DNA from: Bradyrhizobium sp. WSM1417
GTDB taxonomy: Bacteria; Pseudomonadota; Alphaproteobacteria; Rhizobiales; Xanthobacteraceae
Assembly (NCBI RefSeq): GCF_000515415.1
Contig: NZ_KI911783.1
Span: 4,144,392 to 4,208,391, forward strand
Direction: 5' to 3'
Length of the DNA stretch: 64,000 nucleotides
This document shows positions 28,432 to 45,248 of the stretch, one piece after another. Each line of letters starts with the position of its first letter. Position 1 is the first letter of the stretch. A model generated the notes under the pieces. The model was not told the origin of the DNA. It made no database searches and saw nothing but the letters and a program-made list of their open reading frames with translations. The translations under genes were made by a program, and so were the position numbers.

Positions 28432-29394
28432 ATGCAACCCGAACCGATCCTCGATCTCGCTCATCTTGGCCACATGGAGCTGTTGACACCGAAGCCGGAC
28501 GAGAGCCTGAAATTCTTCGTCGACGTCATGGGCATGACCGTCAGCGGACAAAAGGGCGAGTCGGTTTATTTGCGCGGCTGGGACGATTACGAGCGCTATT
28601 CGCTCAAACTGACGGCCTCGAAGACGTCAGGCATGGAGCACATGGCGCTGCGCGCGCGCAGCCAACAGGCGCTCGAGCGCCGCGTCGCGGCGCTTAAGGG
28701 GTCCGGCTTCGACATCGGCTGGATCGACGGCGACATGGGGCAGGGGCCGACCTTCCGCTGCCGTGATCCCGACGGCCACATCGTCGAGCTCTATTACGAG
28801 ACCGAATGGTATCAGGCGCCGCCGGAGTTGAAGCCGGCGTTGAAGAACCAGGCGCAGCGCTTTCCCGCGCGCGGCGTCAATGTCCGCCGCCTCGACCACC
28901 TCAATTGCCTCGCCGTCGACATCAAGGCCAACCGCGAGTTCTTCGAGAACTATCTCGGCTGCCGGCTCACCGAGCAGATCGTGCTCAACGACGGCCGCGA
29001 AGCGGCGATGTGGCTGACGGTGTCCAACAAGAGCTACGACTTTGCCTACTCGCTCGACCATTCCGGCACGCCCGGCCGCTTCCACCACGTCACTTACGCG
29101 CTCGACAGCCGCGAAGAGATCTTGCGCGCCGCCGACATCTTCCTGGAGAACGGCATCCACATCGAGACCGGCCCGCACAAGCACGCGATCCAGCAGACCT
29201 TCTTCCTCTACGTCTACGAGCCCGGCGGAAATCGCGTCGAAGTCGCCAATGCCGGCGCGCGCCTCATCCTTGCGCCCGACTGGAAGCCGATCGTGTGGAC
29301 GGAAGAGGAACGCAAGAAGGGGCAGGCCTGGGGCCTGAAGACGATCGAGTCGTTTCACACGCACGGCACGCCGCCGGTGGAGCACAAGAGGTAG
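28432..29394 (+). CDS. Two-domain VOC extradiol dioxygenase, catechol 2,3-dioxygenase type (320 aa)
   Basis: Type I extradiol dioxygenases open catechol-like rings next to the diol using Fe(II). Two VOC modules are visible (residues about 5-125 and 145-275). The expected iron ligands are in the second: His in RRLDHLNCLAV, His in GRFHHVTYAL and Glu in GNRVEVANAG. ATG 28432 has a ribosome binding site (GGAGG) 7 bp upstream. The substrate is not determinable; the shared operator with the tetR-ligI operon suggests a carboxylated catechol. It is transcribed alone and convergent with nicB. Confidence 0.85.
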   Translation: MQPEPILDLAHLGHMELLTPKPDESLKFFVDVMGMTVSGQKGESVYLRGWDDYERYSLKLTASKTSGMEHMALRARSQQALERRVAALKGSGFDIGWIDGDMGQGPTFRCRDPDGHIVELYYETEWYQAPPELKPALKNQAQRFPARGVNVRRLDHLNCLAVDIKANREFFENYLGCRLTEQIVLNDGREAAMWLTVSNKSYDFAYSLDHSGTPGRFHHVTYALDSREEILRAADIFLENGIHIETGPHKHAIQQTFFLYVYEPGGNRVEVANAGARLILAPDWKPIVWTEEERKKGQAWGLKTIESFHTHGTPPVEHKR

Positions 29395-29397
29395 CGC

Positions 29398-32300
29398 TTA
29401 GTTCGCGGCGGCTCTCACACGCGCAATCGTCTCCTTCACGTCGATCCATGCGGGCCTGTCCGGGGCGAACTGCTTGCGCAGGAACGTGACGAGTTCCTCG
29501 ATCTGTGCATCGCTCATGCTTTTCTTGAAGGCCGGCATGTAGCCGAGATCGCTCGACACCGGCTCGGCGATGCCGTGCAGGACGATTTGCACGAGATTGT
29601 CCGATGTCGCGCTGTGCAGATTGCTGTTGAGTGCCAGCGAGGGCCGGCTGCCGAACAGCGGCAGGCCGCCGACCTCGTGGCAGACGGCGCAGGCGCCCTG
29701 ATAGAGCCGCGCGCCGGTGGAGGACGCCATCGTGACTTGCGTTGAAGCTTCGAGCTTCAGGGCGACCGTATCCTGTGCTTTCCCGTTGGTCGCGCTGTCA
29801 TTGAACGAGTTGAGATAGACGGCCATGGCGCGGATGTCCTGGTCGGGCAGGGCATTGAGGTCCCTGACAACAGGCGCCATCGGACCTGCGGCGACGCCAT
29901 GGTATCGCGAGTGGCCGGTGCGCAAATAGACGAAAAGCTCGTCCTCGCTCCATGGGACCGGCGCGTGCGAGAGTGAGGTCAGCGGCGGCGCCTCCCAGCC
30001 CTCGGCAAAGCCGCCGGCGAGATAGGCGCCACGCTGCTCGGCGCCGAGTGCGTTGCGCGGCGAATGGCAGGCGCTGCAATGGCCGAGGCCTTCGACCAGA
30101 TAAGCGCCGCGATTCCAGACTTCGGATTTGGCGGGATCGGGCTTGAACTCGCGTGCCTGGTGGAACAGCGCATTCCATCCGGCAAGTAGCGGGCGGAAAT
30201 TGAACGGGAAGGCGAGCGTATTCGCAGGCTGCGTCGCGCGCACCGACGGCTGCGCCATCAGGTAGGCGTAAAGCGCCTGCATGTCGGCATCGCCAGTCTT
30301 CGAAAAGTGCGTGTAGGGAAAGGCGGGATAGAGCTGCCGTCCGTCGCGATGAAGCCCGTCGCGCATCGCGCGCTCGAACGCGGGATAGGACCAGGCGCCG
30401 ATTCCGGTTTCGACATCTGGCGTGATGTTGGTCGCGTAGATCGTGCCGAACGGCGTCTCCAGGGCGCGGCCACCGGCGTTGAGCGCTCCGCCGGTCATGG
30501 TGTGGCACTCCGCGCAATTGCCGAGTGCGGCCAGTTGTTGCCCGCGCGCGATGGTCGCTGCGGAATAGACTGATGGATCGGGTCGGGTGATCGGCGCGAT
30601 GGCGCGGCCAGGCAAAAGCGCCGTACCGATGCCGATCGCCGCGGTGCAGACGGCCGCGATCGTCGCGAAGATGCCGGCGCGTTTGGCGAAGGGATTTTCC
30701 CAGATGCGGGATGGCTGTGGCGTAGCGGGAGCCGGCAACGCCTGCGGCGTGGCCGGCGCGCCGCGGTGCAGCCCCTTGAGGATACGCTCGGGCGTGAACG
30801 GCGGCTCGCGAAAGCGCACGCCGGTGGCGTCGAAAATCGCGTTCGCAATCGCAGCCGCGCTCGGGAACGAGGCGGATTCGCCGACGCCGAGCGGCGGCTG
30901 GTCCGGCCGAGGCAGCAACAACACGTCGATCTTGGGCACGTCAGGGAACGGGATGATCGGATAGGCGCCCCATTCCCGCGCCGCGACTGCACCGCGGTCG
31001 AACGAGACCTCCTCCATCAGCGCGCGGCTGGTGGACTGGATGACATTGCCATGGATCTGGTGGCGCACCCCGTCCGGGTTGATCATCAATCCGGAATCCT
31101 GCCCGGCGACCACGCGCGTCACGCTGACCTCGCCGGTCGCCTTGTTCACGGCAACGTCGGTGACCCAGGCCGACCACGCCGCGCCATAGCCGGGGAATTT
31201 GCTGTGGACGTAGAGCGCATAGGCAAAGCCGCGCCCATGCACGATCTCGCCGTCTTTCTCTTGTCGCACCGGCCGCGGCGTCCAGCCCGCACGCTCGGCG
31301 ACCGCATGGACGAGATCGACGGCGCGCTGATCCCTCAGGTAACGCAGGCGATATTCGATCGGGTCGACGCCGGCCTCGGTCGCGGCCTCGTCGATATAGG
31401 ATTCATGCGCAAAGGTGTTCGGCAGGGCCGAGACGCCGCGAAACCAGGACGCGCGCACGATCGGCGCCATGTCGTGGGCGACGACGCGCATGTGGTCGTA
31501 ATCGTAAGGCGGGATCGCAGTGCGGTCGCCCATCTGGAGGACGTCCGGCTTCGGCGATATCCGCCCCGTCAGCAACAGCGCCAAAGTCGGGGCGGCATTC
31601 GACGGATAGCGCGTGGCGAGATCGTAGGCGGCGACGTCGCCCTTCGCGTCCAGGCCGCCATTGACGTCGATGAGCTGCGCGGCGCCTTTGGGCTCCCAGG
31701 CGTGCTCCTGCTCGCGCGTCAGCTGCACGCGCACGGGCCGGCCGACAGCGCGCGAGAGCAACAGCGCGTCCGCGGTGACATCGTCGGCGCAGTTGCGACC
31801 GTAACAGCCGGCGGCCTCCAACCTGATCACCTCGATCTCGCTCTCGGGACGCTCGATCAGCAGCGCCAGGTCTGCGCGCAACACGTGCGGATTTTGCGTG
31901 CCCGACCAGACGCGGATGTTGCCGTCCTGGAAGTCGGCGACCGCGCAGGACGGGCCGATCGAGGCATGCATCTGATATGGCCAGACGTAAGTGCGCCGCA
32001 TCGGCTTTGCCGCGCCGGCAATGGCAGCATCGACGTCGCCCTTGTCGATCAGCGTGCGCGGCGTCGATGGATTGGCGCGCAGCGCGTTCTCGACGTCGGC
32101 GAGATCGGTCAGTTCAGGCGTCGGTCGCCAGCTCACCGCAAGCTGCTCCGCCGCGCGGATCGCGTTCTCCTCGCGCTCCGCGACGATTCCGACGAAATCG
32201 CCGATGCGCACGACGGCTATGATGCCGGGAATGCCGCGCACCGAGGATTCATCGACCGAAATCAGGCTGGTGCCGACGAACGGGCCGGCGTCGACGCCGG

Positions 32301-32928
32301 CATAGGGCGGTCGCACCACGCGGCCGTGCAGCATGCCGGGCATACGGATGTCGTGCACGAAGGTCAGCTCACCCGTGGCCTTGGCCGGCAGGTCGACGCG
32401 GGGCATCGATTGGCCGACAATGGCGTAATCGCTGACCGGCTTGACGGCGATGTCGTCGGCAAGCTCGAGACGAATGGTCTCTCCGCCGATCAACTCGCCA
32501 TAGCTGACGCTGCGATTGTCGTGCCCGCGCACGAGGCCGTCTTCGATTCTGAGATCGGCTGCCGGCAGCTCCAGGCGCTCGGCCGCACGTGCGATCAGGA
32601 AGTGTCGCGCCTGCGCGGCGGCCTTGCGCAGGGGATTGGCGGTGATCTGGATGGTCTCGCTCGCGATCGTAGCGCCCTGGTTCGGCACCGTTGCGGTGTC
32701 GCCGAGCACCACGACCACGCGGGCAAAGGAGACGTCGAGCTCTTCAGCAACGATCTGGCCAAGCGCCGTGCGGATGCCGGTGCCGAGATCGACATGACCA
32801 TTGTAGGCGGTGACTGAACCGTCCGCGGTGATGCGGACGAAGGTCTCGGATGTGCACTCGTGCACGGTGCGGACGACGACGAGCGAGCCGGATTGCAGCT
32901 CAGCTCCGTTCGGATGCGGGGAGGCCAT
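29398..32928 (-). CDS. nicB: Nicotinate dehydrogenase, molybdopterin and cytochrome c subunit (1176 aa)
   Basis: The large subunit of nicotinate hydroxylase. An aldehyde-oxidase-type molybdopterin domain covers about residues 1-740, and the C-terminal 420 residues carry a membrane anchor (about residues 755-775) and three class I cytochrome c domains. Their CxxCH motifs are CAECH (about 806), CSACH (about 949) and CAVCH (about 1079). This architecture matches Pseudomonas putida NicB. It hydroxylates nicotinate at C6 with water and passes electrons through NicA and the hemes to the respiratory chain. ATG 32928 overlaps the nicA stop (TGATG). Isoquinoline 1-oxidoreductase relatives share the Mo domain, so substrate relies on context. 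Confidence 0.88.
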   Translation of the reverse strand: MASPHPNGAELQSGSLVVVRTVHECTSETFVRITADGSVTAYNGHVDLGTGIRTALGQIVAEELDVSFARVVVVLGDTATVPNQGATIASETIQITANPLRKAAAQARHFLIARAAERLELPAADLRIEDGLVRGHDNRSVSYGELIGGETIRLELADDIAVKPVSDYAIVGQSMPRVDLPAKATGELTFVHDIRMPGMLHGRVVRPPYAGVDAGPFVGTSLISVDESSVRGIPGIIAVVRIGDFVGIVAEREENAIRAAEQLAVSWRPTPELTDLADVENALRANPSTPRTLIDKGDVDAAIAGAAKPMRRTYVWPYQMHASIGPSCAVADFQDGNIRVWSGTQNPHVLRADLALLIERPESEIEVIRLEAAGCYGRNCADDVTADALLLSRAVGRPVRVQLTREQEHAWEPKGAAQLIDVNGGLDAKGDVAAYDLATRYPSNAAPTLALLLTGRISPKPDVLQMGDRTAIPPYDYDHMRVVAHDMAPIVRASWFRGVSALPNTFAHESYIDEAATEAGVDPIEYRLRYLRDQRAVDLVHAVAERAGWTPRPVRQEKDGEIVHGRGFAYALYVHSKFPGYGAAWSAWVTDVAVNKATGEVSVTRVVAGQDSGLMINPDGVRHQIHGNVIQSTSRALMEEVSFDRGAVAAREWGAYPIIPFPDVPKIDVLLLPRPDQPPLGVGESASFPSAAAIANAIFDATGVRFREPPFTPERILKGLHRGAPATPQALPAPATPQPSRIWENPFAKRAGIFATIAAVCTAAIGIGTALLPGRAIAPITRPDPSVYSAATIARGQQLAALGNCAECHTMTGGALNAGGRALETPFGTIYATNITPDVETGIGAWSYPAFERAMRDGLHRDGRQLYPAFPYTHFSKTGDADMQALYAYLMAQPSVRATQPANTLAFPFNFRPLLAGWNALFHQAREFKPDPAKSEVWNRGAYLVEGLGHCSACHSPRNALGAEQRGAYLAGGFAEGWEAPPLTSLSHAPVPWSEDELFVYLRTGHSRYHGVAAGPMAPVVRDLNALPDQDIRAMAVYLNSFNDSATNGKAQDTVALKLEASTQVTMASSTGARLYQGACAVCHEVGGLPLFGSRPSLALNSNLHSATSDNLVQIVLHGIAEPVSSDLGYMPAFKKSMSDAQIEELVTFLRKQFAPDRPAWIDVKETIARVRAAAN

Positions 32929-33410
32929 CAATCACCGGCCTCGGCGAGCTGACCAGACGCACGCATCACGGCGCGAAGGATTTCGATATGCGTGCCGCAG
33001 CGACAGAGATTGTAGCGCAGCGCCGCCAGCGCCTCCTGTTCGGTGGGCCGCGGGTTGATCGCAAGCAGCGCCTTGGTGGTCATGATCATGCCGTTGAGGC
33101 AATAGCCGCATTGCGCGGCTTGTTCGTCGATGAAGGCCTGCTGCACCGCATCCGGCTTGGCGCGGGTGCCGAGCCCTTCAAGCGTCACGATGTCGCGGCC
33201 GGCGCAGCCACCGATCGGAATGACGCAGGAGCGCGCCGCCGCACCATCGATCAGGACAGTGCAGGTGCCGCATTCACCGAGGCCGCAACCGTATTTCGGA
33301 CCGTTGAGCGCGAGATCGTTGCGCAGCACGTAGAGCAGCGGCGTGTCTCGCGCCGCAGTGATCTCGTGGATCCTGCCGTTCACGGTGATGCGGATCGGTG
33401 TCTGCGTCAT
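32928..33410 (-). CDS. nicA: Nicotinate dehydrogenase, [2Fe-2S] subunit (160 aa)
   Basis: The small iron-sulfur subunit of a molybdenum hydroxylase. The plant-type cluster ligands are in GCGLGECGTC (Cys42, 47, 50) with Cys62; the second cluster uses CGYC (101, 104) and CRC (136, 138). The sequence is very similar to Pseudomonas NicA as I remember it, including LEGLG and VQQAFIDEQAAQCGYC. It is the first gene of the minus-strand nicAB operon, divergent from hnr. The 281-bp region between them carries two operator-like palindromes. Confidence 0.9.
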   Translation of the reverse strand: MTQTPIRITVNGRIHEITAARDTPLLYVLRNDLALNGPKYGCGLGECGTCTVLIDGAAARSCVIPIGGCAGRDIVTLEGLGTRAKPDAVQQAFIDEQAAQCGYCLNGMIMTTKALLAINPRPTEQEALAALRYNLCRCGTHIEILRAVMRASGQLAEAGD

Positions 33411-33495
33411 CCTCGTTCCCAAATCGACTCGTTGAGCGCCGCGGCCAAAGCTTCGCGAATTCCAAGCCCGCTCAAAATCTACGTTGCGACGATAC

Positions 33496-33511
33496 CGTTT
33501 GTACACAAACG
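33496..33511. promoter_or_regulatory. Operator-like palindrome upstream of nicAB
   Basis: CGTTTGTACACAAACG has 7-bp perfect arms around a 2-bp centre. Read on the other strand, CGTTTGTGTACAAACG, it matches the palindromes at 33649, 44394 and 44408. It lies 85 bp before the nicA start, where a promoter would be expected. Confidence 0.7.
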
Positions 33512-33648
33512 TGCAAGCCGTGCATGCCGCAGTGCAGCGCGAATGCCTTCTTTGTGGACAGAGCGGATAGGCAAATGAGGTTTTATGCGGCAGGCGTATG
33601 TTTTGCGCCGCACCGCCGCTTGACAGTCATCGGGAGGGCGCGCAACAT

Positions 33649-33664
33649 CGTTCGTGTACAAATG
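33649..33664. promoter_or_regulatory. Operator-like palindrome upstream of hnr
   Basis: CGTTCGTGTACAAATG, inside a wider imperfect palindrome ATCGTTCG...AATGAT, lies 27 bp before the hnr ATG. It shares the GTGTACAAA core with the sites upstream of nicA and between ena and fpr, so all are probably bound by one regulator. Confidence 0.65.
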
Positions 33665-33691
33665 ATAACTGCACTGTCGGCTGGCTTTGAC

Positions 33692-35149
33692 ATGGTGACT
33701 GAACCTACGACCGCCGCCATCGACAAGATCCGCTGCGATGCGTGTCCGGTGATGTGCTACATCAAGCCGGGCGCGGCGGGCGCCTGCGACCGCTACGCCA
33801 ATCACGAGGGCAAGCTCGTCCGCGTCGATCCGCATGTGATCCTGGAGCGCACCGTGTCGCATGGCGGCAAGCTCGTTCCGTTCAGCCGCACCGAAGATTG
33901 GGACGGCAAGATCGTCCACGAGCCTTCAACCTTTGTGACGGCGATCGGCGCGGGCACGACCTATCCCGACTACAAGCCGGCGCCGTTCATCGTCTCCGCT
34001 GAGGTCGACGGCGTCGACATGGTGACTGTCGTCACCGAGGGCATCTTCTCCTATTGCGGCATCAAGGTGAAGATCGACACCGACCGTTATCTGGGGCCGG
34101 AGACGGCGACCGTCCGTGCGCAAGGCGAGGCGGTCGGTCACGTCACCACCAGCGAATACGGTTCGCAGATGCTATCGCTCGGCGGCGTGCATCATCTGAC
34201 CGGCGGCTCCAAGAAGGAAGGCCGCGTCACCTGCGACGCGCTGATGGACCTCGCAAATTGCAAGGCGGTCGAACTCACCATCGACGGCGGCGCGAGCGTG
34301 GTGGTGCAGGCCGGCCAGCCGCCGATCGTCAACGGCATAAAAGAAGAGCGCATGCGCGTCGGCTGCGGCTCGGCGACGATCGGCATGTTCGCCAAGCAAT
34401 GGCACGGCAAGGTCGACGAGGTTGTCGTGGTCGACGACCACATCACCGGCGTGCTCTCGGAGCACCAGGCCGGCAAGCTGCTCGATATCGCCGACACCGG
34501 CATCAAGATGAAGGGGCGCCGCTCGACGCCCGGCCGCTATTTCCAGGTCGCCGATCCCGGCACGGGTTGGGGCGGCACCAATATCTCCGATCCGCTCGCA
34601 ATCCTGGGACCGTTCGACGCCAAGGAAGCCAGGGCCGGCCTCTCCATGCTGATGGTCTCCACGACCGGCGAACATTCGTCCTATTACGTGCTCAATGAGG
34701 CCCTGAAGCCGGTCGAGACCGAGATGCCTGATGATCTGAAGTTCTCGGTCGAGCGTATTCAGGAGAATTGCGAGCCGGCGCTGTGTACGGTGCTGTTCAT
34801 GGCGGGCGCCGGTGGTTCCTTGCGGGCGGGCGTGACCGACAATCCGGTGCGGCTGACGCGCTCGGTCAAGGATGCGCTGACGCGCGTCACCAGTGGCGGC
34901 GCGCCGGTCTATGTCTGGCCAGGCGGCGGCATCACCTACATGGTGGACGTGACGCAGATGCCGGCGGGGGCATTCGGTTACGTGCCGACGCCAGCGCTGG
35001 TCGCGCCGATAGAATTCACGATGAAGCTGTCGGACTATGCGGCGCTCGGTGGGCACATGGATTATGTCAAGCCGCTCTCCGAGGTCCAGCGCGGCGACGA
35101 TGTCCGCCAATTGCCCTGGCAGAACCCGATTCCGGGACCTCGGGCATGA
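33692..35149 (+). CDS. hnr: 6-hydroxynicotinate reductase (485 aa)
   Basis: This enzyme reduces 6-hydroxynicotinate to 6-oxo-1,4,5,6-tetrahydronicotinate with reduced ferredoxin, as in Eubacterium barkeri. The N-terminus carries an iron-sulfur motif, CDACPVMC...ACDRY (Cys15, 18, 22, 32), and further conserved Gly-rich segments (GGVHHLTGGSKKEG, DPGTGWGGTNISDP) follow. ATG 33692 gives the standard beginning just before the Cys cluster. It heads a plus-strand operon that includes a UPF0280 gene, a DUF1185 gene, an ABC importer and a MarR gene. Identification rests on my recall of the family plus the neighbouring nicAB, ena and fpr. Confidence 0.83.
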   Translation: MVTEPTTAAIDKIRCDACPVMCYIKPGAAGACDRYANHEGKLVRVDPHVILERTVSHGGKLVPFSRTEDWDGKIVHEPSTFVTAIGAGTTYPDYKPAPFIVSAEVDGVDMVTVVTEGIFSYCGIKVKIDTDRYLGPETATVRAQGEAVGHVTTSEYGSQMLSLGGVHHLTGGSKKEGRVTCDALMDLANCKAVELTIDGGASVVVQAGQPPIVNGIKEERMRVGCGSATIGMFAKQWHGKVDEVVVVDDHITGVLSEHQAGKLLDIADTGIKMKGRRSTPGRYFQVADPGTGWGGTNISDPLAILGPFDAKEARAGLSMLMVSTTGEHSSYYVLNEALKPVETEMPDDLKFSVERIQENCEPALCTVLFMAGAGGSLRAGVTDNPVRLTRSVKDALTRVTSGGAPVYVWPGGGITYMVDVTQMPAGAFGYVPTPALVAPIEFTMKLSDYAALGGHMDYVKPLSEVQRGDDVRQLPWQNPIPGPRA

Positions 35150-36042
35150 CAAGGCTCCCGCAAATCGCGTTGCTGTCTGATGGCCGGCGGCTGCATTTGC
35201 AGGATGGACCGATTGATTTGGTCGTCGAAGCGACGGGGGCGGCCGACGCAGTGCGTGCGGCCTATGAGGCTGCCACCCGGCGCTTCACGGGGTTACTCGA
35301 CGAACTCTGCGCGGAACTGCCGGAGCTGCGGACTGCCGTCGAGGGCCGGACCTCGTTGAGAGGCGTTGTGGCGCGTCGCATGCACGCCGCCGTGGCGCCC
35401 TATGCCGCTGATGGCTTCATCACGCCGATGGCCGCTGTGGCCGGCAGCGTGGCGGAGGAGGTGTTGGGCGCGATGCTGGGCGCGGCATCGCTCGATCGGA
35501 CCTATGTCAACAATGGCGGCGACATCGCCCTGCATCTCGGCGACGGCCAGCATTTTTCGGTCGGCCTGATGGACCGGCCCGATGGCGACGGGGTGATGCG
35601 GACAATCAGGGTGGACGCCGATGATCCCGTGCGCGGCATCGCGACCAGTGGGCGGCACGGCCGCAGCTTTTCGCTCGGCATTGCCGATGCGGTGACCGTG
35701 TTGGCCGGAACGGCGTCGCAAGCCGATGCCGCCGCGACGATCGTTGCGAATGCCGTCGATCTGCCGGGGCACCCCGCCATCATCCGAAAGCCAGCGAGCG
35801 AGCTTCAGCCCGACAGCGATCTCGGCGCGCGGCTCGTGACCCGCAACATTGGTGGATTGTCGCAGAACGAGATCTCGACCGCGCTCGAATCTGGCGCGGA
35901 ATGTGCACGGCAATTATTCGATCGCGGATTGATCGAGGGTGCCGTGTTGCAGCTTTGTGGTGATATGCTTGTCATCGGGACCAAGGATATTGAACGGCAA
36001 CGATCGCGCCCGCTTGTACAAGAGAACGCGGTTCATGCCTGA
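35146..36042 (+). CDS. UPF0280-family protein (298 aa)
   Basis: The sequence fits the UPF0280 family, related to ApbE-type flavin transferases. Visible features are LPQIALLSDGRRLHLQDGPID at the start, the NNGGDIALHL motif and SGRHGRSFSLGIADAVTVLA in the middle. No signal peptide is present, so a cytoplasmic role is expected. It overlaps the hnr stop (ATGA), which suggests it works with the reductase, for example in flavin attachment or a later ring-derived intermediate. That role is inference; no reaction is known to me. Confidence 0.8.
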   Translation: MTRLPQIALLSDGRRLHLQDGPIDLVVEATGAADAVRAAYEAATRRFTGLLDELCAELPELRTAVEGRTSLRGVVARRMHAAVAPYAADGFITPMAAVAGSVAEEVLGAMLGAASLDRTYVNNGGDIALHLGDGQHFSVGLMDRPDGDGVMRTIRVDADDPVRGIATSGRHGRSFSLGIADAVTVLAGTASQADAAATIVANAVDLPGHPAIIRKPASELQPDSDLGARLVTRNIGGLSQNEISTALESGAECARQLFDRGLIEGAVLQLCGDMLVIGTKDIERQRSRPLVQENAVHA

Positions 36043-36069
36043 ACAGGGAAGCGGCTTGAGGAAACAATC

Positions 36070-36679: not shown

Positions 36680-37882
36680 ATGCGAGCAAAGAATTATTTC
36701 GCCGGCGCGGCATTTGCGCTGTTGGCGAGCGGCATGGCTCATTCGGCCCTGGCGCAGGATATCAAGATCGGCGAAATCAACAGTTATTCGTTGCTGCCGG
36801 CGTTCACCGAGCCCTATCGCAAGGGCTGGCAGCTCGCGGTCGAAGAGATCAATGCGGCCGGCGGCATCAACGGCAAGAAGCTCATCGTCGTCTCCAAGGA
36901 CGACGGCGGCAAGCCGGCGGATGCGCAGACCGCGGCCAACGAACTGGTGTCGAGCGAGGGCGTGGCGATGCTGACGGGTACGTTCCTGTCGAACATCGGC
37001 CTTGCGGTCAGCGACTTCGCCAACCAGAAGAAGGTGTTCTTCCTGGCGGCCGAGCCGCTGACGGACGCCATCACCTGGTCCAAGGGCAACAAGTACACCT
37101 TCCGACTGCGTCCTTCGAACTACATGCAGGCGGCGATGCTGGTGGAAGCAGCCAGCAAGCTGCCGGCAAAGCGCTGGGCGACAATCGCGCCGAACTATGA
37201 ATACGGCCAGTCGGCGGTCGCCGTGTTCAAGAAGCTGATGTCGGAAAAGCGGCCCGACATCCAGTGGGTCGACGAGCAGTGGCCGCCGCAGGGCAAGATC
37301 GACGCCGGTCCGGTGGTGCAGGCGGTTGCCGCGGCCAATCCCGAAGCGATCCTCAACGTCACCTTCGGCGCGGATCTCGTCAAGCTCGTGCGTGAAGGCA
37401 ACACCCGCGGTCTGTTCAAGGGACGCGAGGTCGTCTCGTTCCTGACCGGCGAGCCCGAATATCTCGACCCGCTCAAGGAGGAGACGCCCGAGGGCTGGAT
37501 CGTCACCGGCTATCCCTGGTACTCGATCAAGACGCCCGAGCACGACGCGTTCCTGAAGGCCTATCAAGCCAAGTACAACGACTATCCGCGGCTCGGCTCG
37601 ATCGTCGGCTACCAGACCATCAAGTCCGCAGCGGCGATCCTGGCGAAGGCGAACTCCACCGATCCGGAGAAGCTGATTGCTGCCGCGGAGGGCCTGTCGA
37701 TGCCGTCGCCGTTCGGCGAGATCACCTTCCGCAAGATCGATCACCAGTCCACGCTGGGTGCCTATGTCGGCAAGACCGCGCTGAAGGATGGCAAGGGCGT
37801 GATGGTGGACTCGTCTTACAAGAAGGGCGCGGACTATCTGCCAAGTGACGCCGAAGTCGAGAAGCTGCGTCCGAAGGATTGA
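36680..37882 (+). CDS. Branched-chain-amino-acid-type ABC transporter binding protein (400 aa)
   Basis: A LivJ/LivK-like type I periplasmic binding protein. It has a signal peptide of about 25 residues ending ALAQ, followed by DIKIGEINSYS. Other features are the helix WQLAVEEINAAGGINGKKL and the hinge segments KKVFFLAAEP and NYEYGQSAVAVFKKL. ATG 36680 has a strong ribosome binding site (GGAGG). The operon context suggests the ligand is nicotinate or a related carboxylate rather than an amino acid. A palindromic repeat separates it from the permease gene. Confidence 0.88.
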   Translation: MRAKNYFAGAAFALLASGMAHSALAQDIKIGEINSYSLLPAFTEPYRKGWQLAVEEINAAGGINGKKLIVVSKDDGGKPADAQTAANELVSSEGVAMLTGTFLSNIGLAVSDFANQKKVFFLAAEPLTDAITWSKGNKYTFRLRPSNYMQAAMLVEAASKLPAKRWATIAPNYEYGQSAVAVFKKLMSEKRPDIQWVDEQWPPQGKIDAGPVVQAVAAANPEAILNVTFGADLVKLVREGNTRGLFKGREVVSFLTGEPEYLDPLKEETPEGWIVTGYPWYSIKTPEHDAFLKAYQAKYNDYPRLGSIVGYQTIKSAAAILAKANSTDPEKLIAAAEGLSMPSPFGEITFRKIDHQSTLGAYVGKTALKDGKGVMVDSSYKKGADYLPSDAEVEKLRPKD

Positions 37883-37898
37883 TGCAAGGAGACCGGGG

Positions 37899-37993
37899 CC
37901 TCGTGGTCGAGACGCGCGGCGCTGCCGCGCTCCTCACCATGAGGTCCCCGGACCTCATCCTGAGGAGGCGCGTAGCGCCGTCTCGAAGGATGA
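37899..37993. repeat. Palindromic intergenic repeat inside the ABC transporter operon
   Basis: Arms of about 44 bp, with inner ends ATGAGGTC and GACCTCAT, form an imperfect inverted repeat (GGTCGAGACG...CGTCTCGAAGG at the outer ends). It is a dispersed Bradyrhizobium-type palindrome located between the binding-protein and permease genes, where such hairpins often raise the relative amount of upstream mRNA. Confidence 0.75.
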
Positions 37994-38031
37994 AGCCCAA
38001 TACTGAGATTTATGCTTAACCCGGACCGCAG

Positions 38032-39921
38032 ATGGCCTTTTACGTCGTACAGTTTCTGACCGGTCTCGCCAGCGCAGCGTCGCTGTTCCTGGTGGCGTCG
38101 GGCCTGTCGATCATCTTTGGCGTGACGCGGATCGTGAATTTTGCGCACGGTGCCTTCTACATGATCGGTGCCTATATCGCCTTCACGCTGACGGAACGCC
38201 TATCGGGGACGTTCGGCTTCTGGGGCGGGATCGTCATCGCAGCGCTTGCCGTGGCAGTGATCGGCGTCATTGTCGAGATGGTGATGCTCCGGCGCATCTA
38301 TCACGCGCCCGAGCTGTTCCAGCTGCTTGCGACCTTCGGCCTGACCTTGATGGTCGAGGACCTCGTCGTCCTGATCTGGGGGCCAGACGATCTCGTCGGG
38401 CGCCGTGCGCCTGGCTTCAAGGGCGCGATCGACTTCTTCGGCCAGAACATTCCGAGCTATGATTTGTTCCTGATCGTGCTCAGCCCCGTCGTGCTCGGCA
38501 TTCTCTGGCTCTTGTTCCAGCGCACGCGCTGGGGCGTGCTAGTGCGCGCAGCGACGCAAGACCGCGACATGGTGGCGGCGCTCGGCGTCAATCAGAAATG
38601 GCTGTTCACGAGCGTGTTTGCGGTCGGTGTTTTCCTCGCCGCCCTCGGCGGTGCGCTCCAGATCCCACGCGACGCCGTGCACCATGCGATGGATCTGCGC
38701 ATCATCGTCGAGGTCTTCGTCGTCGTGGTGATCGGAGGCCTCGGCAGCATCATCGGCGCTTTCGTCGCGGCGGTGCTGGTCTCCGAGCTCAACGCCTTCG
38801 GCATCCTGATCTTTCCAAAAATCTCCATCATCCTGGTCTTCCTGGTGATGGCGGCGGTGCTGATCGTGCGGCCATGGGGTCTGTTCGGCAGGCCCGAGGC
38901 GCCGGCACGCAAGACACCGGGCCTCACCGTCAACCCCTGGCGACCGCTGACGTCGAATGAGCGGTTGGCTGCGCTTGCAACGCTCGTCATCGCGGCGACG
39001 CTGCCGCTGTTTGCCGGCAATTATGCATTGACCGTCGGCTCGGAGATCGCGATCTCCGTGATCTTCGCCGTCAGCCTGCACTTCCTGATGTCGGTCGGCG
39101 GGCTCGCCTCCTTCGGCCATGCCGCCTATTTCGGGCTGGGCGCTTACGGAGTCGCTTTCCTCGCCAAGATGGCGGGACTGCCGATGATCGTCTGCCTGTT
39201 GCTCGGGCCGCTGCTCGGCTGCATGGGCGCTGCCGTGTTCGGCTTCTTCGCAGTGCAGCTCTCCGGTGTGTATTTCGCGATGTTGACGCTCGCCTTCGCG
39301 CAGATCGTCTGGTCGATCGCGTTCCAGTGGGTGAGCGTCACCGGCGGCGACAACGGCATCCTGGGCGTCTGGCCCGCGAGCTGGGCGGCGAGCCCATCGC
39401 ATTTCTATTGGCTGTCGCTCGGCGTTGCGGCGCTCGTGACGATCGCGTTGCGGGCCATGGTGTTCTCGCCGTTCGGTTATGCGCTGAGGGCGACGCGCGA
39501 CTCGCTGCTGCGCAGCGAAGCGGTCGGCATCAACGCCAAGCGCATCCAGTGGACGGCCTTCGTGATCGCGGGCACGACCGCCGGCATCGGCGGCGCGCTG
39601 TTCGCCTACCTCAAGGGCAGCGTCTTCCCGGACAATCTCGGCATCTCGCTCTCGGTCGATGCGCTGGTCATGGTCCTGCTCGGCGGCGTCGAGACGGTGT
39701 CGGGCGCGGTGATCGGCGCCATCGTCTACAAGGCCTTGAACATCTGGCTGGTCAGCCAGACCGACCTGTCGAAACTCGTGCTCGGCGGCTTCATCGTTCT
39801 CATCGTCGTCGTCTTCCCCAAGGGCATCGTCGGCATGCTGGAGATGCTGGCGCAGCGTCGCAGGAAGGCATCGCCGCCGGGGTCCCCCTTGCTTGCCAAG
39901 CCGATTGAGTCCGCCGAATGA
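38032..39921 (+). CDS. Fused LivH-LivM-type ABC permease (629 aa)
   Basis: Both membrane subunits of a branched-chain-amino-acid-type importer are in one chain. Residues 1-290 resemble LivH (FGVTRIVNFAHGAFYMIGAY; GGLGSIIGAFVAAVLV), and residues 310-605 resemble LivM (VGGLASFGHAAYFGLGAYG; ALRATRDSLLRSEAVGIN; LLGGVETVSGAVIGA). A short charged linker (RPEAPARKTPG) joins them. The four core parts of the importer are therefore encoded by four consecutive genes. Its stop overlaps the livG-type start. Confidence 0.9.
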   Translation: MAFYVVQFLTGLASAASLFLVASGLSIIFGVTRIVNFAHGAFYMIGAYIAFTLTERLSGTFGFWGGIVIAALAVAVIGVIVEMVMLRRIYHAPELFQLLATFGLTLMVEDLVVLIWGPDDLVGRRAPGFKGAIDFFGQNIPSYDLFLIVLSPVVLGILWLLFQRTRWGVLVRAATQDRDMVAALGVNQKWLFTSVFAVGVFLAALGGALQIPRDAVHHAMDLRIIVEVFVVVVIGGLGSIIGAFVAAVLVSELNAFGILIFPKISIILVFLVMAAVLIVRPWGLFGRPEAPARKTPGLTVNPWRPLTSNERLAALATLVIAATLPLFAGNYALTVGSEIAISVIFAVSLHFLMSVGGLASFGHAAYFGLGAYGVAFLAKMAGLPMIVCLLLGPLLGCMGAAVFGFFAVQLSGVYFAMLTLAFAQIVWSIAFQWVSVTGGDNGILGVWPASWAASPSHFYWLSLGVAALVTIALRAMVFSPFGYALRATRDSLLRSEAVGINAKRIQWTAFVIAGTTAGIGGALFAYLKGSVFPDNLGISLSVDALVMVLLGGVETVSGAVIGAIVYKALNIWLVSQTDLSKLVLGGFIVLIVVVFPKGIVGMLEMLAQRRRKASPPGSPLLAKPIESAE

Positions 39922-40709
39922 GCGTCGCCCCCCCACTTCTCGCGGTCGAAGGACTGACCAAATCCTATGGCGGCGTTCACGCCGTGCGCGGCGTCTCGTT
40001 CTCGCTGCGATCAGGCGAGATCCTGGCGTTGATCGGACCGAACGGTGCGGGCAAGAGCACCTGTTTCGACATGCTCAACGGCCAGAACAGGCCTGATAGC
40101 GGCCACGTCCGCCTGCTCGGCGAGGACACAACCGGCAGGAAGCCGCGCGAGATCTGGCGGATGGGCGTGGGCCGCACCTTCCAGATCACCGCGACTTTTG
40201 CGACCATGACGGTGCGCGAGAACGTGCAGGTCGCGCTGATCTCGCACGGCAAGCAATTGTACAATGTTTGGGGCTCGGCGCCGAACTTCGACCGTGCCGA
40301 GGCCGGGCGACTGCTCGAGCTGGTCGGCATGGGTGGCTATGCGGATCGCCCCTGTGGCGAGCTTGCCTATGGCGATCTCAAGCGGCTCGAGCTCGCCGTC
40401 GCGCTCGCCAACCAGCCAAAGCTGCTGCTGATGGACGAGCCGACCGCCGGCATGGCGCCGCGCGAGCGCGTCGATTTGATGCGGCTGACCGCGCAGATCG
40501 CTCGGGAAAAATCGATCGGCGTTCTCTTCACCGAGCACGACATGGACGTGGTGTTCGAGCACGCCGATCGCATCATCGTGCTCAACCGCGGCACGTTGAT
40601 CGCCGAGGGCTCGCCCGCCGAGGTCCGCGGCAATCCGCAGGTACAGGCGGTCTACCTCGGCGAGGGCCTGCTTTACGATGCCGGCCATCGCGAGGGAGCA
40701 TCGGCATGA
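39918..40709 (+). CDS. ABC transporter ATPase, LivG-type (263 aa)
   Basis: A LivG-like nucleotide-binding subunit. It has Walker A GPNGAGKST, the LivG-typical GVGRTFQITATFATMTVREN, a signature region CGELAYGDLKRLELAVAL (a divergent LSGGQ in which LAYGD replaces it, as usual for this subfamily), Walker B LLLMDEPTAGM and the H-loop FTEHDMDVV. It overlaps the permease stop by ATGA and the livF-type start by four bases. Confidence 0.92.
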   Translation: MSVAPPLLAVEGLTKSYGGVHAVRGVSFSLRSGEILALIGPNGAGKSTCFDMLNGQNRPDSGHVRLLGEDTTGRKPREIWRMGVGRTFQITATFATMTVRENVQVALISHGKQLYNVWGSAPNFDRAEAGRLLELVGMGGYADRPCGELAYGDLKRLELAVALANQPKLLLMDEPTAGMAPRERVDLMRLTAQIAREKSIGVLFTEHDMDVVFEHADRIIVLNRGTLIAEGSPAEVRGNPQVQAVYLGEGLLYDAGHREGASA

Positions 40710-41410
40710 AGCTCACGGTCGAGGGGCTCAATAGTCATTACGGCCCGGCCCATATCCTGTTCGACATCGGATTCGAAGTCGGCGAGGGGGAAGTCGTGGC
40801 GTTGCTCGGTCGCAACGGCGCCGGCAAGTCGACGACGTTCCGCTCGATCGTCGGGCTCGTCGCGCAGCGCTCGGGGCGGATCATGTTCGAAGGCAAGGAC
40901 GTCTCGGCACGTCCCACACATGAGATCGTGCGGGATGGGCTTGGTTACGTGCCAGAGGAGCGGCGTATCTTCACCGATCTGACGGTGGAAGAGAATCTCG
41001 AGGTCGGCCGCCAGCCGAAGCGCCCGAACGCGCCGCACTGGACCCGTGACAAGCTGTTTTCGCTGTTCCCTAACCTCGGCGAGATGAAAAATCGTCCGGG
41101 CGGGCGCATGAGCGGCGGCGAGCAGCAGATGCTCACCATCGCACGCACGCTGATGGGCAATCCGTCGCTGGTGCTGCTGGACGAGCCCTCGGAGGGCCTG
41201 TCGCCGAAGATCGTGGAGCAGATGGTCGATGCCATCCTGACCATGAAGAAGGAGGGCGTCAGCATCGTCGTCTCCGAGCAGAATCTGCACTTTGCGCGGC
41301 TGATCTCCGATCGCGCCTATATCATCGAGCGCGGCCGCATCTGTTTCGGCGGCACCATGGCCGAGCTCGACGCGCGTCCGGATATCCGCGACGCACATCT
41401 GTCGTTGTGA
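40706..41410 (+). CDS. ABC transporter ATPase, LivF-type (234 aa)
   Basis: The second ATPase of the importer, with Walker A GRNGAGKST, the LivF-type GYVPEERRIFTDLTVEENL, signature MSGGEQQMLTIAR, Walker B LVLLDEPSEGL and SEQNLHFA. Length and overlap with the preceding gene are normal. The end overlaps a possible GTG start of the MarR gene, so regulator and transporter are transcribed together. Confidence 0.92.
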   Translation: MKLTVEGLNSHYGPAHILFDIGFEVGEGEVVALLGRNGAGKSTTFRSIVGLVAQRSGRIMFEGKDVSARPTHEIVRDGLGYVPEERRIFTDLTVEENLEVGRQPKRPNAPHWTRDKLFSLFPNLGEMKNRPGGRMSGGEQQMLTIARTLMGNPSLVLLDEPSEGLSPKIVEQMVDAILTMKKEGVSIVVSEQNLHFARLISDRAYIIERGRICFGGTMAELDARPDIRDAHLSL

Positions 41411-41430
41411 AGGCAAAGGGTATCGAGCGG

Positions 41431-41886
41431 ATGGCGAGAAGCGTCGCAGCGAAGAAAAGCGTCAAACCGGCAAAGCCGCCTTACGTGCTCGATGAGCAGG
41501 TTGGCTTCATCCTTCGCCAGGTCTGGCAGCGCCACAGCGCGATCTTCTCTCGCGAGATCGGCACCAATATCACGCCGACGCAATGGGCAGCGCTATCGAA
41601 GCTCGCCGAGGCCGGGCCATGCTCGCAGAACCAGCTCGGGCGCCTCACGGCGATGGATGTGGCGACCATCAAGGGCGTGATCGATCGTTTGACGGCGCGC
41701 GGCCTGACCGAGACCAGCCAGGATCCGGAGGACGGACGGCGGCTTCTGGTCAGCCTGACGCGCGCGGGGCAGCAACTGGCGGAAAAGGTCGCGCCGAATG
41801 CGCTCGCGATCACGCGGGAGACGCTGGCGCCGCTCGAGGCAAGGGAGCGCGAGATGCTGATGGCGCTATTGAACAAGCTGCGGTGA
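41431..41886 (+). CDS. MarR-family transcriptional regulator (151 aa)
   Basis: A winged helix-turn-helix repressor-type protein. The DNA-binding part is NQLGRLTAMDVATIKGVIDRLTARGLTE, with wing DPEDGRRLLVSLT. Helices at both ends (VGFILRQVWQRHSAIFSREI; LMALLNKLR) form the dimer interface. It is the last gene of the hnr-importer operon and the best candidate for the protein that binds the CGTTTGTGTACAAACG-like palindromes; the effector could be nicotinate or 6-hydroxynicotinate. A GTG at 41407, overlapping the upstream stop, is an alternative start. Confidence 0.88.
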   Translation: MARSVAAKKSVKPAKPPYVLDEQVGFILRQVWQRHSAIFSREIGTNITPTQWAALSKLAEAGPCSQNQLGRLTAMDVATIKGVIDRLTARGLTETSQDPEDGRRLLVSLTRAGQQLAEKVAPNALAITRETLAPLEAREREMLMALLNKLR

Positions 41887-41895
41887 GGCGCGACT

Positions 41896-41922
41896 AACCT
41901 CGATGAAGGTCTTGTCGAGGTT
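41896..41922 (+). terminator. Inverted repeat after the MarR gene
   Basis: AACCTCGA (41896-41903) and TCGAGGTT (41915-41922) form a perfect 8-bp stem with an 11-nt loop, followed by CTTGAT rather than a clean T-run. It lies 10 bp after the marR stop, so it may end the operon, or lie in the leader of the next gene. Confidence 0.4.
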
Positions 41923-41928
41923 CTTGAT

Positions 41929-42318
41929 ATGAGAGCGGCCATGCGGTTTGCGCTGGCTCTGAGTATGAGTGCGATGCTGGCGGGCCGGTGTGCTCCCGCC
42001 CTGGCGGCGGAAGCCTATGAGGGGTTCTGGGCGTCAACCAAGAAGGATTGCCGCGACCAGGACAGCGCCAACCGCATGAGCATCGAGGGCGGCAACCGCC
42101 TCTATTGGTACGAGACCAGGTGCCGCGCCAGCGAGATCACGGCCGACGGGCACCTGAGCTGGAAAATGAAGCTCGCCTGCGAAGGCGAGGGCGAGAAGTA
42201 TCGTTCCAGTCCCCGGGTTTCCATTGCCGCGGATGGCAAGCTGGTGATGGACAACAGCCCGGTCGGGCAGGGCAAGCGCCAGACCTATGTGCGTTGTGAG
42301 ATCGCAAAACCGCGGTGA
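41929..42318 (+). CDS. Secreted protein of unknown function (129 aa)
   Basis: A clear signal peptide (MRFALALSMSAMLAGRCAPALA, cleaved before AEAYEGFW) precedes a small domain with four cysteines (KKDCRDQ, TRCRAS, KLACEGE, VRCEIA) that could form two disulfides in the periplasm. The first ATG (41929) and a second at 41941 are both possible starts. No family is recognised. It is convergent with the next gene. Confidence 0.65.
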   Translation: MRAAMRFALALSMSAMLAGRCAPALAAEAYEGFWASTKKDCRDQDSANRMSIEGGNRLYWYETRCRASEITADGHLSWKMKLACEGEGEKYRSSPRVSIAADGKLVMDNSPVGQGKRQTYVRCEIAKPR

Positions 42319-42323
42319 CGCCC

Positions 42324-43013
42324 TTACATCTTCCCTGGCCATTTGGCGCGATAGCGGATTTCGCTGCCGTCGGCGAGCCGTCGCCACGTTCCGAACTCCG
42401 GCGTATGCGGAGCCCAGGCCGTCAGTCCGATCGGGTACACTCGGCTGGGCTGTCCCTGGATGTTGACGGCGAGCTGGCGGTGCGAGGTTCGGAACGCCAG
42501 TTCGACTTCGCCTGCGATAACGGGCTGATCGCCGTCACGATGGAAGCCGGCCGGGTTCAATTCGCCCGGCATACTGTTGAGGTCGGTCTGCAATTCGATA
42601 GTGATGTCTTGCGCTGATTTCGGCACCGTTGCGCCGGCCGGAAGGCGAACCTCGAACACGAGCAGGGGAGTGGCGCCGTTCCGGTTGAGCCAGGGTGTGG
42701 CCGTCATGTACGCGACGCCCATGTAAGTGGCCGCAGCGGCAACGCAGAGCAGGGCGACGACGCCGAGCGACTTCAGGCTGTTGCGCGCGAGACTGCTATT
42801 GCTTGCATCCGCGCCGGAACGCGTCACCAGCCAGCTGGCAAGCACCACGCCAGCGATCGCGCCGACGGGTGAGTAGACGAACAGTGCCAACAGGCCAGAC
42901 GTGATCGGATCCGCCCGGTTGCCCAGATCGAGCACTGAAAACAGCACAAAGGTCGCGACATAACCTCCGACCGCACCGGTAACGCCGGCAGCAATCCGCG
43001 ACGAATTCTTCAT
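42324..43013 (-). CDS. Membrane protein of unknown function (229 aa)
   Basis: Three hydrophobic segments (about residues 10-30, 42-62 and 85-105) are followed by a soluble C-terminal domain of about 120 residues. That domain is beta-rich and ends with HTPEFGTWRRLADGSEIRYRAKWPG. The soluble part probably faces the periplasm. No homologous family is recognised. ATG 43013 (MKNSSRI) is used. It lies between the secreted-protein gene and ena. Confidence 0.6.
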   Translation of the reverse strand: MKNSSRIAAGVTGAVGGYVATFVLFSVLDLGNRADPITSGLLALFVYSPVGAIAGVVLASWLVTRSGADASNSSLARNSLKSLGVVALLCVAAAATYMGVAYMTATPWLNRNGATPLLVFEVRLPAGATVPKSAQDITIELQTDLNSMPGELNPAGFHRDGDQPVIAGEVELAFRTSHRQLAVNIQGQPSRVYPIGLTAWAPHTPEFGTWRRLADGSEIRYRAKWPGKM

Positions 43014-43121
43014 GTCTGCCTCGACGCCCCGCAATGAACTGCCTGTGTTAGACGCAGCAGGCTGGCGACTTGTTCAATGCTTTCAGGTGACCGCGCAGAG
43101 CGGCGAGCCGCTCCGGCTGCG

Positions 43122-44318
43122 TCACTTCGCCACCACCTCGGGCACCCTGCCGGCCGGTGGGGTGTTGCGGCTACGCTGGGTGCGCACGATCCCGTCGATG
43201 ATAGTCATGCCGATGCCGGGCAGGTCGCCGAGCTGCACGCTGTCCAAAATATTCTTGCCGGCCGAGTGCTGCGCCTTGTCCATGACGACGAAGTCGGCGG
43301 AACGGCCAACTTCGATCAGGCCGCAATCCAATTCGCGCATCCGCGCCGTGTTGCCGGTGGCCAGGCAAAACGCGACCTCTGCCGGCAGGTCGCCAAGCGA
43401 GGACAGCATCGAGACCATCCTGAGAATGCCGAGCGGCTGCACGCCGGAGCCGGCCGGCGCATCGGTGCCGAGGATGACGCGGTGCAGATCGCCCATCTCG
43501 CGCGCGATGCGCAACGTGAACAGCGCCGAGCGCTCATTGCCATTGTGCACGAGCTCGAGGCCGCGCTTGCAGCCCTCGCAGATGCAGCGGATCTGATCGT
43601 CTGGAAGCGCGGTGTGGCCGCCGTTGATGTGGCCAACCACGTCGGTGTCGGCCTCCAGCACCACGTCCTTGTCGATCAATCCGGAGCCGGGGATCGAGGG
43701 TCCGCCGGTGTGGATCGTGCTCTGGATGCCGTATTTGCGGGCCCAGCCAACCATTTTTCGCGCGGTCGGGCCGTCCTTGACGCCGCCCAGGCCCACTTCG
43801 CCGAGCAGCTTGACGCCGGCTGCGGCCAGCTCCTTGAAGTCCTCCTCGACCATCTCGCATTCGATCACAGGCGCGCCGGCGTGAACCTTCACGCCGCCGG
43901 GCCGCAGATTCCAGAATGCGCGCTGGGTGAAGATGGCCATCGCCTTCAACCCGACGACGTCGCGCGGGCGGCCGGGCATGTGCACCTCGCCGGCGGAAAT
44001 CATCGTGGTGACGCCGCCATGCAAATTGCTGTCGATCCAGCCGATCTGGTTCTGGCGCGGCGTCCAGTCGCCCGCAACAGGGTGGACATGGCTGTCGATC
44101 AAGCCGGGTGCCACCGCGGTGCCGTTGGCCTCGACGATGGTGGTCGCGCCTTCGGTGTTGAGGTCCTTGAAGCGGCCGATCGCGGTGATCTTGCCGTTCT
44201 CGGCGACGATGGTGTCGCCGTCCAGGATCGGCTTTTCCAGCGCGCCGGACAGGATCAGGCCGATATTGCGGATCACGAGCTTCGAGGGTCCGGTGGCCTG
44301 GGGTGCGTCATGCGCCAT
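43122..44318 (-). CDS. ena: Enamidase (398 aa)
   Basis: An amidohydrolase-superfamily enzyme that hydrolyses 6-oxo-1,4,5,6-tetrahydronicotinate to 2-formylglutarate and ammonia, first described in Eubacterium barkeri. Metal-ligand motifs are DSHVHPVAGD (H-x-H), STIHTGG, GHINGGHTALP and the final Asp in LGTDAPAGSG. The opening VIRNIGLILSGALEKPIL and the RNTPPAGR end strongly resemble the clostridial enamidase from memory. ATG 44318 (MAHDAPQ) is used. It is divergent from fpr, with paired palindromes between, and would follow Hnr in the pathway. Confidence 0.85.
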   Translation of the reverse strand: MAHDAPQATGPSKLVIRNIGLILSGALEKPILDGDTIVAENGKITAIGRFKDLNTEGATTIVEANGTAVAPGLIDSHVHPVAGDWTPRQNQIGWIDSNLHGGVTTMISAGEVHMPGRPRDVVGLKAMAIFTQRAFWNLRPGGVKVHAGAPVIECEMVEEDFKELAAAGVKLLGEVGLGGVKDGPTARKMVGWARKYGIQSTIHTGGPSIPGSGLIDKDVVLEADTDVVGHINGGHTALPDDQIRCICEGCKRGLELVHNGNERSALFTLRIAREMGDLHRVILGTDAPAGSGVQPLGILRMVSMLSSLGDLPAEVAFCLATGNTARMRELDCGLIEVGRSADFVVMDKAQHSAGKNILDSVQLGDLPGIGMTIIDGIVRTQRSRNTPPAGRVPEVVAK

Positions 44319-44393
44319 GGAATGGGTCCTTGTCCTTAACTGCAACGCTTCCGATCTTGGGCAGCCTTGACCGCGGGATCAAGCCAGATTATT

Positions 44394-44423
44394 CATTAGT
44401 ATACAAATGATCGTGTACAAACG
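44394..44423. promoter_or_regulatory. Two overlapping operator-like palindromes between ena and fpr
   Basis: CATTAGTATACAAATG (44394-44409) is a near-perfect palindrome. TGATCGTGTACAAACG (44408-44423) overlaps it by two bases. Both share the GTRTACAAAYG core with the sites at 33496 and 33649. They lie 76 bp from the ena start and 52 bp from the fpr start, positioned to control both directions. Confidence 0.7.
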
Positions 44424-44474
44424 ACGCATAGCTGCCGCCTTGAAAACCGCCACGACGTGCCACGGAAGGGTGAG

Positions 44475-45248
44475 ATGAGCAATTTCAATCAGGAAGCCGT
44501 TTTGAGCGTCCACCACTGGACCGACACGCTGTTCTCCTTCAAGACCACCCGCAGCCCGACCTTCCGCTTCCGCAACGGCGAGTTCACCATGATCGGGCTC
44601 AAGGTCGGCGAGAAGCCGCTGCTGCGGGCCTATAGCGTCGCCAGCGCCAATTACGAGGACACGCTGGAGTTCTTCTCGATCAAGGTGCCGGACGGCCCGC
44701 TCACCTCACGGCTCCAGCATCTGAAGGAAGGCGACGAGATCATCGTCAGCCGCAAGGCCACCGGCACGCTGGTCATCGACAATCTGGAGGACGGCCGCAA
44801 CCTCTACCTCATCGGCACCGGTACGGGCCTTGCGCCGTTCCTGAGCGTGATCAAGGACCCCGAAACCTACGAGCGGTTCGAGAAGGTCGTGCTGCTGCAC
44901 GGTTGCCGGCACGTCAAGGAGCTCGCCTATGGCGAGATGATCACCGAGACGCTGCCCACGGACGAGCTGATCGGCGAGTACATCCGCAACCAGTTGATCT
45001 ACTATCCGACCGTGACGCGCGATCCCTTCCGCAATCGCGGCCGCATCACCGACCTCATCACCTCGGGCAAGCTGTTTTCCGATATCGGCCTGCCGGCGCT
45101 GGAAGCCGCCCACGACCGCGTCATGATCTGCGGCAGCCCGGCGCTGGTGGCGGACACCCGCGTGCTCCTCGGCGAGCGGGGGCTTGTCGAGGGTAATCAC
45201 GGCGAGCCGGCCCAATTCGTGGTCGAAAAGGCCTTCGCCGAGCGCTAG
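44475..45248 (+). CDS. fpr: Ferredoxin-NADP+ reductase (257 aa)
   Basis: An FAD-dependent reductase of the bacterial Fpr type. The FAD-binding motif is RAYSVASA (R-x-Y-S), the NADP-binding segment GTGTGLAPFLSVI, and the C-terminus ends VEKAFAER. ATG 44475 has a ribosome binding site (GGAAGGG). It moves electrons between NADPH and ferredoxin. Divergent pairing with ena and shared operator-like sites suggest that it supplies reduced ferredoxin to Hnr, although it may also be the general Fpr of the cell. Confidence 0.9.
   Translation: MSNFNQEAVLSVHHWTDTLFSFKTTRSPTFRFRNGEFTMIGLKVGEKPLLRAYSVASANYEDTLEFFSIKVPDGPLTSRLQHLKEGDEIIVSRKATGTLVIDNLEDGRNLYLIGTGTGLAPFLSVIKDPETYERFEKVVLLHGCRHVKELAYGEMITETLPTDELIGEYIRNQLIYYPTVTRDPFRNRGRITDLITSGKLFSDIGLPALEAAHDRVMICGSPALVADTRVLLGERGLVEGNHGEPAQFVVEKAFAER

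Follow-up and report, generated by a model that had tools for sequence, protein, structure and literature searches.

A nicotinate gene cluster of Bradyrhizobium sp. WSM1417 with a predicted 6-hydroxynicotinate reductase lacking a ferredoxin domain and a UPF0280 protein that likely attaches its flavin

How does an aerobic bacterium run the low-potential, dearomatizing reduction of a pyridine ring? This question is raised by a gene cluster in a 64,000-nucleotide stretch of Bradyrhizobium sp. WSM1417 (contig NZ_KI911783.1, positions 4,144,392 to 4,208,391), here called the window, from a genome that forms a single contig of 8.05 Mb and whose nearest named matches for the reductase are from Bradyrhizobium. 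Nicotinate clusters of this type have been described before in relatives of Bradyrhizobium, and both pathway and cluster are known; how the aerobe carries out the reductive step is less clear. In the reading that we favor as the probable one, NicAB oxidizes nicotinate, a 6-hydroxynicotinate reductase (Hnr) without a ferredoxin domain reduces the ring, an enamidase (Ena) opens it, and a UPF0280 protein likely attaches the flavin of Hnr. What is new here is the Hnr without a ferredoxin domain, the distribution of the ferredoxin-NADP reductase gene fpr, and the coupling of UPF0280 to Hnr.

The hnr gene (33692–35149, + strand) was assigned by homology and by its invariant core cysteines, the window protein matching no Pfam or NCBIfam family at E ≤ 1e-3. 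To collect relatives, contigs were scanned with the two Ena sequences, giving at least 416 confirmed loci; counts for L002–L081 refer to the best 80 of these, which come from archaea, Firmicutes, sulfate reducers, actinobacteria, alphaproteobacteria and others, and 60 of the 80 carry Hnr. The Hnr alignment held 59 proteins, namely that of the window and 58 of the 60 (L002 and L009 were excluded as cut short). Identity of the window protein is 39–46% to the Hnr of 41 loci, mostly of anaerobic lineages by name, and 63–84% to that of 17 loci, nearly all proteobacterial, with C15, C18, C22 and C32 invariant in 59/59. The assignment made in an earlier, sequence-only reading of this DNA is supported by these relatives, among which the Hnr of Eubacterium barkeri itself was not included. 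An N-terminal Fer4-type domain is present in 40 of the 59 and absent from 19 (the window and 18 loci). In a tree of 76 rows, trimmed to the core, a single branch separates the 40 ferredoxin-domain rows from the 36 others, corresponding to one change (support 94/89; 94% of bootstrap trees), and the window protein groups with Afipia, near Azorhizobium, Aquabacter and Jiella. Long branches lead to L040, L024 and L021; L040 has no such domain yet joins the ferredoxin-domain side. The built-in ferredoxin domain of the anaerobes' enzyme is thus missing from the window Hnr, which must take its electrons from a separate ferredoxin or from another donor; the pathway had been called ferredoxin-linked, and ferredoxin is still a possible donor, though not one built into this enzyme.

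Directly after hnr lies a UPF0280/COG2122 gene (35146–36042, + strand; NF003322, 421.6 bits against a cut-off of 290), the start of which overlaps the hnr stop as ATGA (35146–35149). In a survey of 199 genomes of the host's order (47 with Hnr; Ena threshold E ≤ 1e-60), UPF0280 was found in 46/47 Hnr-bearing genomes versus 1/152 others, that is, 46 genomes with both and two with a single one of the pair. A same-genus set searched for UPF0280 alone gave 35 of 36 genomes, including that of the window. The structure model of UPF0280 has the T-fold of the ApbE flavin transferases, with the catalytic Ser, the Mg-binding Asp and the Thr kept (S168, D194 and T198) and a glycine-rich, NxGGD-like loop. 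The Hnr of E. barkeri is reported to carry covalent flavin (Alhapel 2006). Taken together, the ApbE fold, the retained active-site residues and the near-perfect co-occurrence argue for flavinylation, and UPF0280, the partner of flavin-transferase fold that Hnr has in nearly every genome compared, is therefore likely to attach a covalent flavin to Hnr. If this is correct, it would identify the missing maturation factor of Hnr and supply a concrete chemical hypothesis for the unexplained requirement for COG2122 in homocysteine synthesis. A fusion of Hnr and UPF0280 (P0057) was rejected as evidence, being a single metagenomic protein with a junction that reads like a frameshift.

For Hnr without a built-in ferredoxin, a dependence on an outside supply running through NADPH, Fpr and ferredoxin is predicted. 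The fpr-like gene of the window (44457–45248, + strand; family model under its cut-off) has two paralogues in the same genome. A tblastn search (E ≤ 1e-30) of 105 cluster loci located fpr in 13: ten have it as an immediate neighbor of ena or hnr, and in L090, L099 and L101 some 8 kb separate it from hnr. By type of Hnr, it occurs in 10/35 loci with the domain-less form and 0/41 with the domain, plus three Bradyrhizobium relatives outside that count. Its orientation varies: in L097 it lies straight upstream of hnr and runs into it, in L094 it is divergent from hnr, and in Azorhizobium doebereinerae (L069) the order is fdxA-fpr-ena. A 2-oxoacid:ferredoxin oxidoreductase-like gene is present in L084 (in part), L089, L096 and L100, over the cut-off in L089 and found by tblastn in the others. 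These neighbors, fpr, fdxA and the oxidoreductase-like genes, point to ferredoxin as a candidate donor. The earlier suggestion that fpr provides reduced ferredoxin has this conserved neighborhood as its sole support.

The enzymes on either side of the reduction are those that the sequence-only reading had named. The nicB-like gene (29398–32931, − strand) encodes the Mo hydroxylase large subunit of a predicted nicotinate 6-hydroxylase, with Pfam domains MoCoBD_1/2 and, at the C-terminus, the cytochrome c domains Cytochrom_C and Cytochrome_CBB3; the nicA-like gene (32928–33506, − strand; true start likely near 33410) encodes the 2Fe-2S subunit (Fer2, Fer2_2). Pseudomonad NicAB likewise pairs a 2Fe-2S small subunit with a Mo large subunit ending in cytochrome c domains, and the assignment compares domain architectures. 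In its best-matching segment, NicB of A. doebereinerae is 64% identical, and the locus of that species, which groups NicA, NicB, Hnr, UPF0280, AA_synth, Fpr and Ena, supports the connection to Azorhizobium made earlier. The ena gene (43122–44345, − strand) encodes an amidohydrolase that aligns end-to-end with the E. barkeri enamidase 2vun (46% identity, 384 residues, E 1.6e-109), with conservation of H66, H68, E163, H192, H219 and D275, which we take to be the metal ligands.

AA_synth (36070–36654, + strand; PF06684/DUF1185, 251.9 bits against a cut-off of 27) is a further conserved partner, found in 70 of the 80 best Ena loci and 43 of the 47 Hnr genomes; it accompanies Hnr and Ena widely and is often a tandem pair in relatives. 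Its closest solved structure is 2qtp, which together with 3byq represents solved relatives without an assigned function according to a portion of PMC2954203. Ena has no match at the threshold of the survey in 16 of the 47 Hnr genomes, and five of the 11 stretches fetched from these 16 (L082, L083, L086, L088, L090) carry HyuA and HyuB. The pair also occurs in L099, L100 and L101, stretches from genomes with Ena elsewhere, and was absent by tblastn, run on the same 105 loci, from L002–L081 and L108–L112. One HyuA and one HyuB were checked against family models and are hydantoinase A/B proteins by Pfam, and caprolactamase-like under the NCBIfam cut-offs. A nine-row clade of the Hnr tree (96/92) contains every Hyu locus except L082, seven in all. 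The eight Hyu stretches, from genomes of the host's order and all without Ena, may hold an ATP-dependent lactam route. The Hyu genes in Ena-less Hnr loci suggest that the Hnr family may have several substrates and so may act on more than one ring.

Several observations weigh against the flavinylation of Hnr by UPF0280. Genomes from one order are not independent, and UPF0280 occurs with no Hnr in view in two loci that lie at the end of a stretch or contig, L060 and L071. The segment holding the catalytic His of ApbE (His257 in V. cholerae, His273 in FmnB) is a gap in the UPF0280 alignments, and the ApbE target motif D-x-x-[ST]-G-A-[ST], taken from an excerpt of PMC12052999, was found in 0/59 Hnr. 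Ser and Thr residues that are invariant in Hnr include T112, S120, S227, S278, T296, S376 and T443. According to parts of PMC5764234, the homology of COG2122 seemingly falls short of the ApbE flavin-binding region, and homocysteine synthesis depends on COG2122 relatives, for which a role in persulfide or sulfide handling was proposed. The main rival, which we consider rather unlikely, builds on the missing His and on this last function: UPF0280 would be a sulfur-delivery or persulfide factor, like COG2122 of methanogens, that builds the Fe-S clusters of Hnr and attaches no flavin. In Desulfovibrio vulgaris, homocysteine synthesis needs COG2122 together with DUF39/COG1900 and a NIL/ferredoxin protein (PMC5764234, in part), and sections of PMC5764234 and PMC12068725 assign MA1715 to sulfur trafficking. 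However, UPF0280 resembles flavin transferases both in fold and in its invariant Ser, Asp and Thr, it tracks Hnr through the 199 genomes although all of these presumably must make other Fe-S proteins, and 7 of 15 Hnr genomes tested have UPF0280 with no COG1900 match. Covalent flavinylation by UPF0280 is the reading we favor for Hnr. A wider proposal, possible but tentative, is that UPF0280/COG2122 forms a second, cytosolic class of flavin transferases for ferredoxin-dependent reductases, acting on Hnr at a non-ApbE motif and on DUF39/COG1900 in anaerobes and methanogens; flavinylation of DUF39/COG1900 would explain the requirement for COG2122 in those organisms. As a separate observation, residues ~107–121 of Hnr and the 'VDVVTT' of COG1900 have a short VDVVT stretch of uncertain significance in common, both proteins being tied to COG2122.

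The supply of electrons through Fpr meets with counter-evidence of its own. Two further Fpr paralogues, at 63% identity, are encoded in the host genome, 25/35 domain-less loci have no fpr in the fetched stretch, the gene is ~8 kb off hnr in 3/13 loci, and the window cluster yielded no ferredoxin-like frame to a four-Cys pattern scan, which 2Fe-2S types would escape. It is conceivable, if doubtful, that the reductase encoded next to ena serves housekeeping or stress functions and that Hnr draws on another donor; the paralogues, the many loci lacking fpr and the four whose cluster stretch holds a 2-oxoacid:ferredoxin oxidoreductase-like gene speak for this, and the direct adjoining of fpr to hnr or ena in 10 loci, in various orientations and after fdxA in A. 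doebereinerae, speaks against it. The Hyu loci bear on a third alternative, namely that the window Hnr reduces another 6-oxo-N-heterocycle rather than 6-hydroxynicotinate. With 16/47 Hnr genomes lacking an Ena match and caprolactamase-like HyuA/HyuB in five of the 11 fetched, such substrates are plausible for the family, but for the window Hnr this is improbable: the cluster has NicAB and the E. barkeri-like Ena, its Hnr stands with Afipia and near Azorhizobium, apart from the clade holding 7/8 Hyu loci, and strain SG-6C, for which such a cluster is published, grows on nicotinate and 6-hydroxynicotinate (PMC3511419, in part).

With nicotinate as the substrate, the proposed pathway would begin with its uptake by a Liv-type ABC transporter. 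NicA/NicB would then hydroxylate C6, with electrons passing to the respiratory chain via the cytochrome c domains of NicB, as the domain architecture suggests. Hnr, judged by homology, would convert 6-hydroxynicotinate to 1,4,5,6-tetrahydro-6-oxonicotinate with electrons passed from NADPH through Fpr and a free ferredoxin, a chain suggested by gene neighborhood, after maturation by covalent flavinylation through UPF0280, as predicted from fold, active-site residues and co-occurrence. Ena would hydrolyze the ring amide to give 2-formylglutarate, in keeping with its identity to the E. barkeri enzyme, and the later steps probably follow the glutarate route known from Azorhizobium. The B12 branch of E. 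barkeri was rejected for the host genome, where no B12-dependent 2-methyleneglutarate mutase was found and one query from L003 gave a match to the B12-binding domain only (29%, residues 464–565, E 2.8e-6). Families that are Hgd-like, B12-binding, PrpF, lyase-like and aconitase-like (one representative of each was checked) are found in loci of Firmicutes and of a few other anaerobes, with none in L054–L081. Eight Ena/Hnr loci (L022, L031, L038, L041, L042, L044, L047, L048), mostly of sulfate-reducer or syntroph relatives by name, have an aldehyde dehydrogenase family and, by eye, recurrent transporter-like families, perhaps for a glutarate-semialdehyde route.

The cluster begins with nicB and nicA on the − strand. 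Divergent from these run hnr, UPF0280, AA_synth, the genes of the Liv-type ABC transporter and that of a MarR regulator, with ena (−) and fpr (+) beyond them. The genes nicA, nicB, hnr, ena and fpr named previously are all present with open frames, to which we add UPF0280, AA_synth, the transporter and MarR. All on the + strand, the transporter comprises a substrate-binding protein for predicted nicotinate uptake (36668–37882; UrtA/branched-chain models, under their cut-offs) and, named by eye, a LivHM-like fused permease (38032–39921), a LivG-like ATPase (39918–40709) and a LivF-like ATPase (40709–41410); the MarR-family regulator (PF01047) is at 41407–41886. This order is conserved in five Bradyrhizobium relatives (L108–L112), as far as their stretches extend. 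A catechol-2,3-dioxygenase-like gene beside nicB (28420–29394; TIGR03211, 370.9 bits against a cut-off of 320.2) had been included by an earlier start at 28432, and was rejected as a pathway step. L108 and L111 have it beside the cluster; L109 and L110, two of the four relatives that reach that far (L112 stops short of it), do not, and the cluster is therefore taken as 29398–45248, with the earlier end unchanged and the dioxygenase-like gene as a neighbor, not a member. Neither nicC nor nicX was noted in the cluster, no search being aimed at them in window or genome. A cytochrome P450-like gene, named by eye, lies past fpr (45727–46998) and also in L108 and L112, and fatty-acid and acyl-carrier genes at 18027–22893 (by eye) resemble the rhizobial very-long-chain lipid A cluster.

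Among known systems, the nearest is the cluster that PMC3511419 mapped in 2012 in A. caulinodans, B. japonicum USDA110 (blr3818–blr3830), R. palustris HaA2 and strain SG-6C (Figure 4 legend), and to which portions of that paper assign the tetrahydro-oxonicotinate (THON) route, citing Alhapel 2006 and Kitts 1989/1992; SG-6C is shown there to degrade both nicotinate and 6-hydroxynicotinate. As cluster and route were already mapped there, the central claim of the sequence-only reading, that this locus could be the genetic basis of that route, is right but has been in print since 2012. Two unknown proteins of the published cluster, probably UPF0280 and AA_synth, are left without a name in the consulted sections of PMC3511419, which likewise make no mention of a missing ferredoxin domain or of fpr as an electron source. 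The nicotinate fermentation cluster of E. barkeri has Ena (46% identity) and the Hnr family in common with the window, and 40 other Hnr have the ferredoxin domain that the window Hnr lacks; E. barkeri uses an NdhFSLM dehydrogenase. With ApbE, Ftp and FmnB, UPF0280 shares the T-fold, the aligned Ser, Asp and Thr and the NxGGD-like loop, and differs in having no catalytic His segment, as its partner Hnr does in having no target motif. Compared with the COG2122 proteins of homocysteine synthesis (MA1715 and that of D. vulgaris; structure 2o34, DVU1097), the family is here coupled to Hnr, even where no match to COG1900 turns up.

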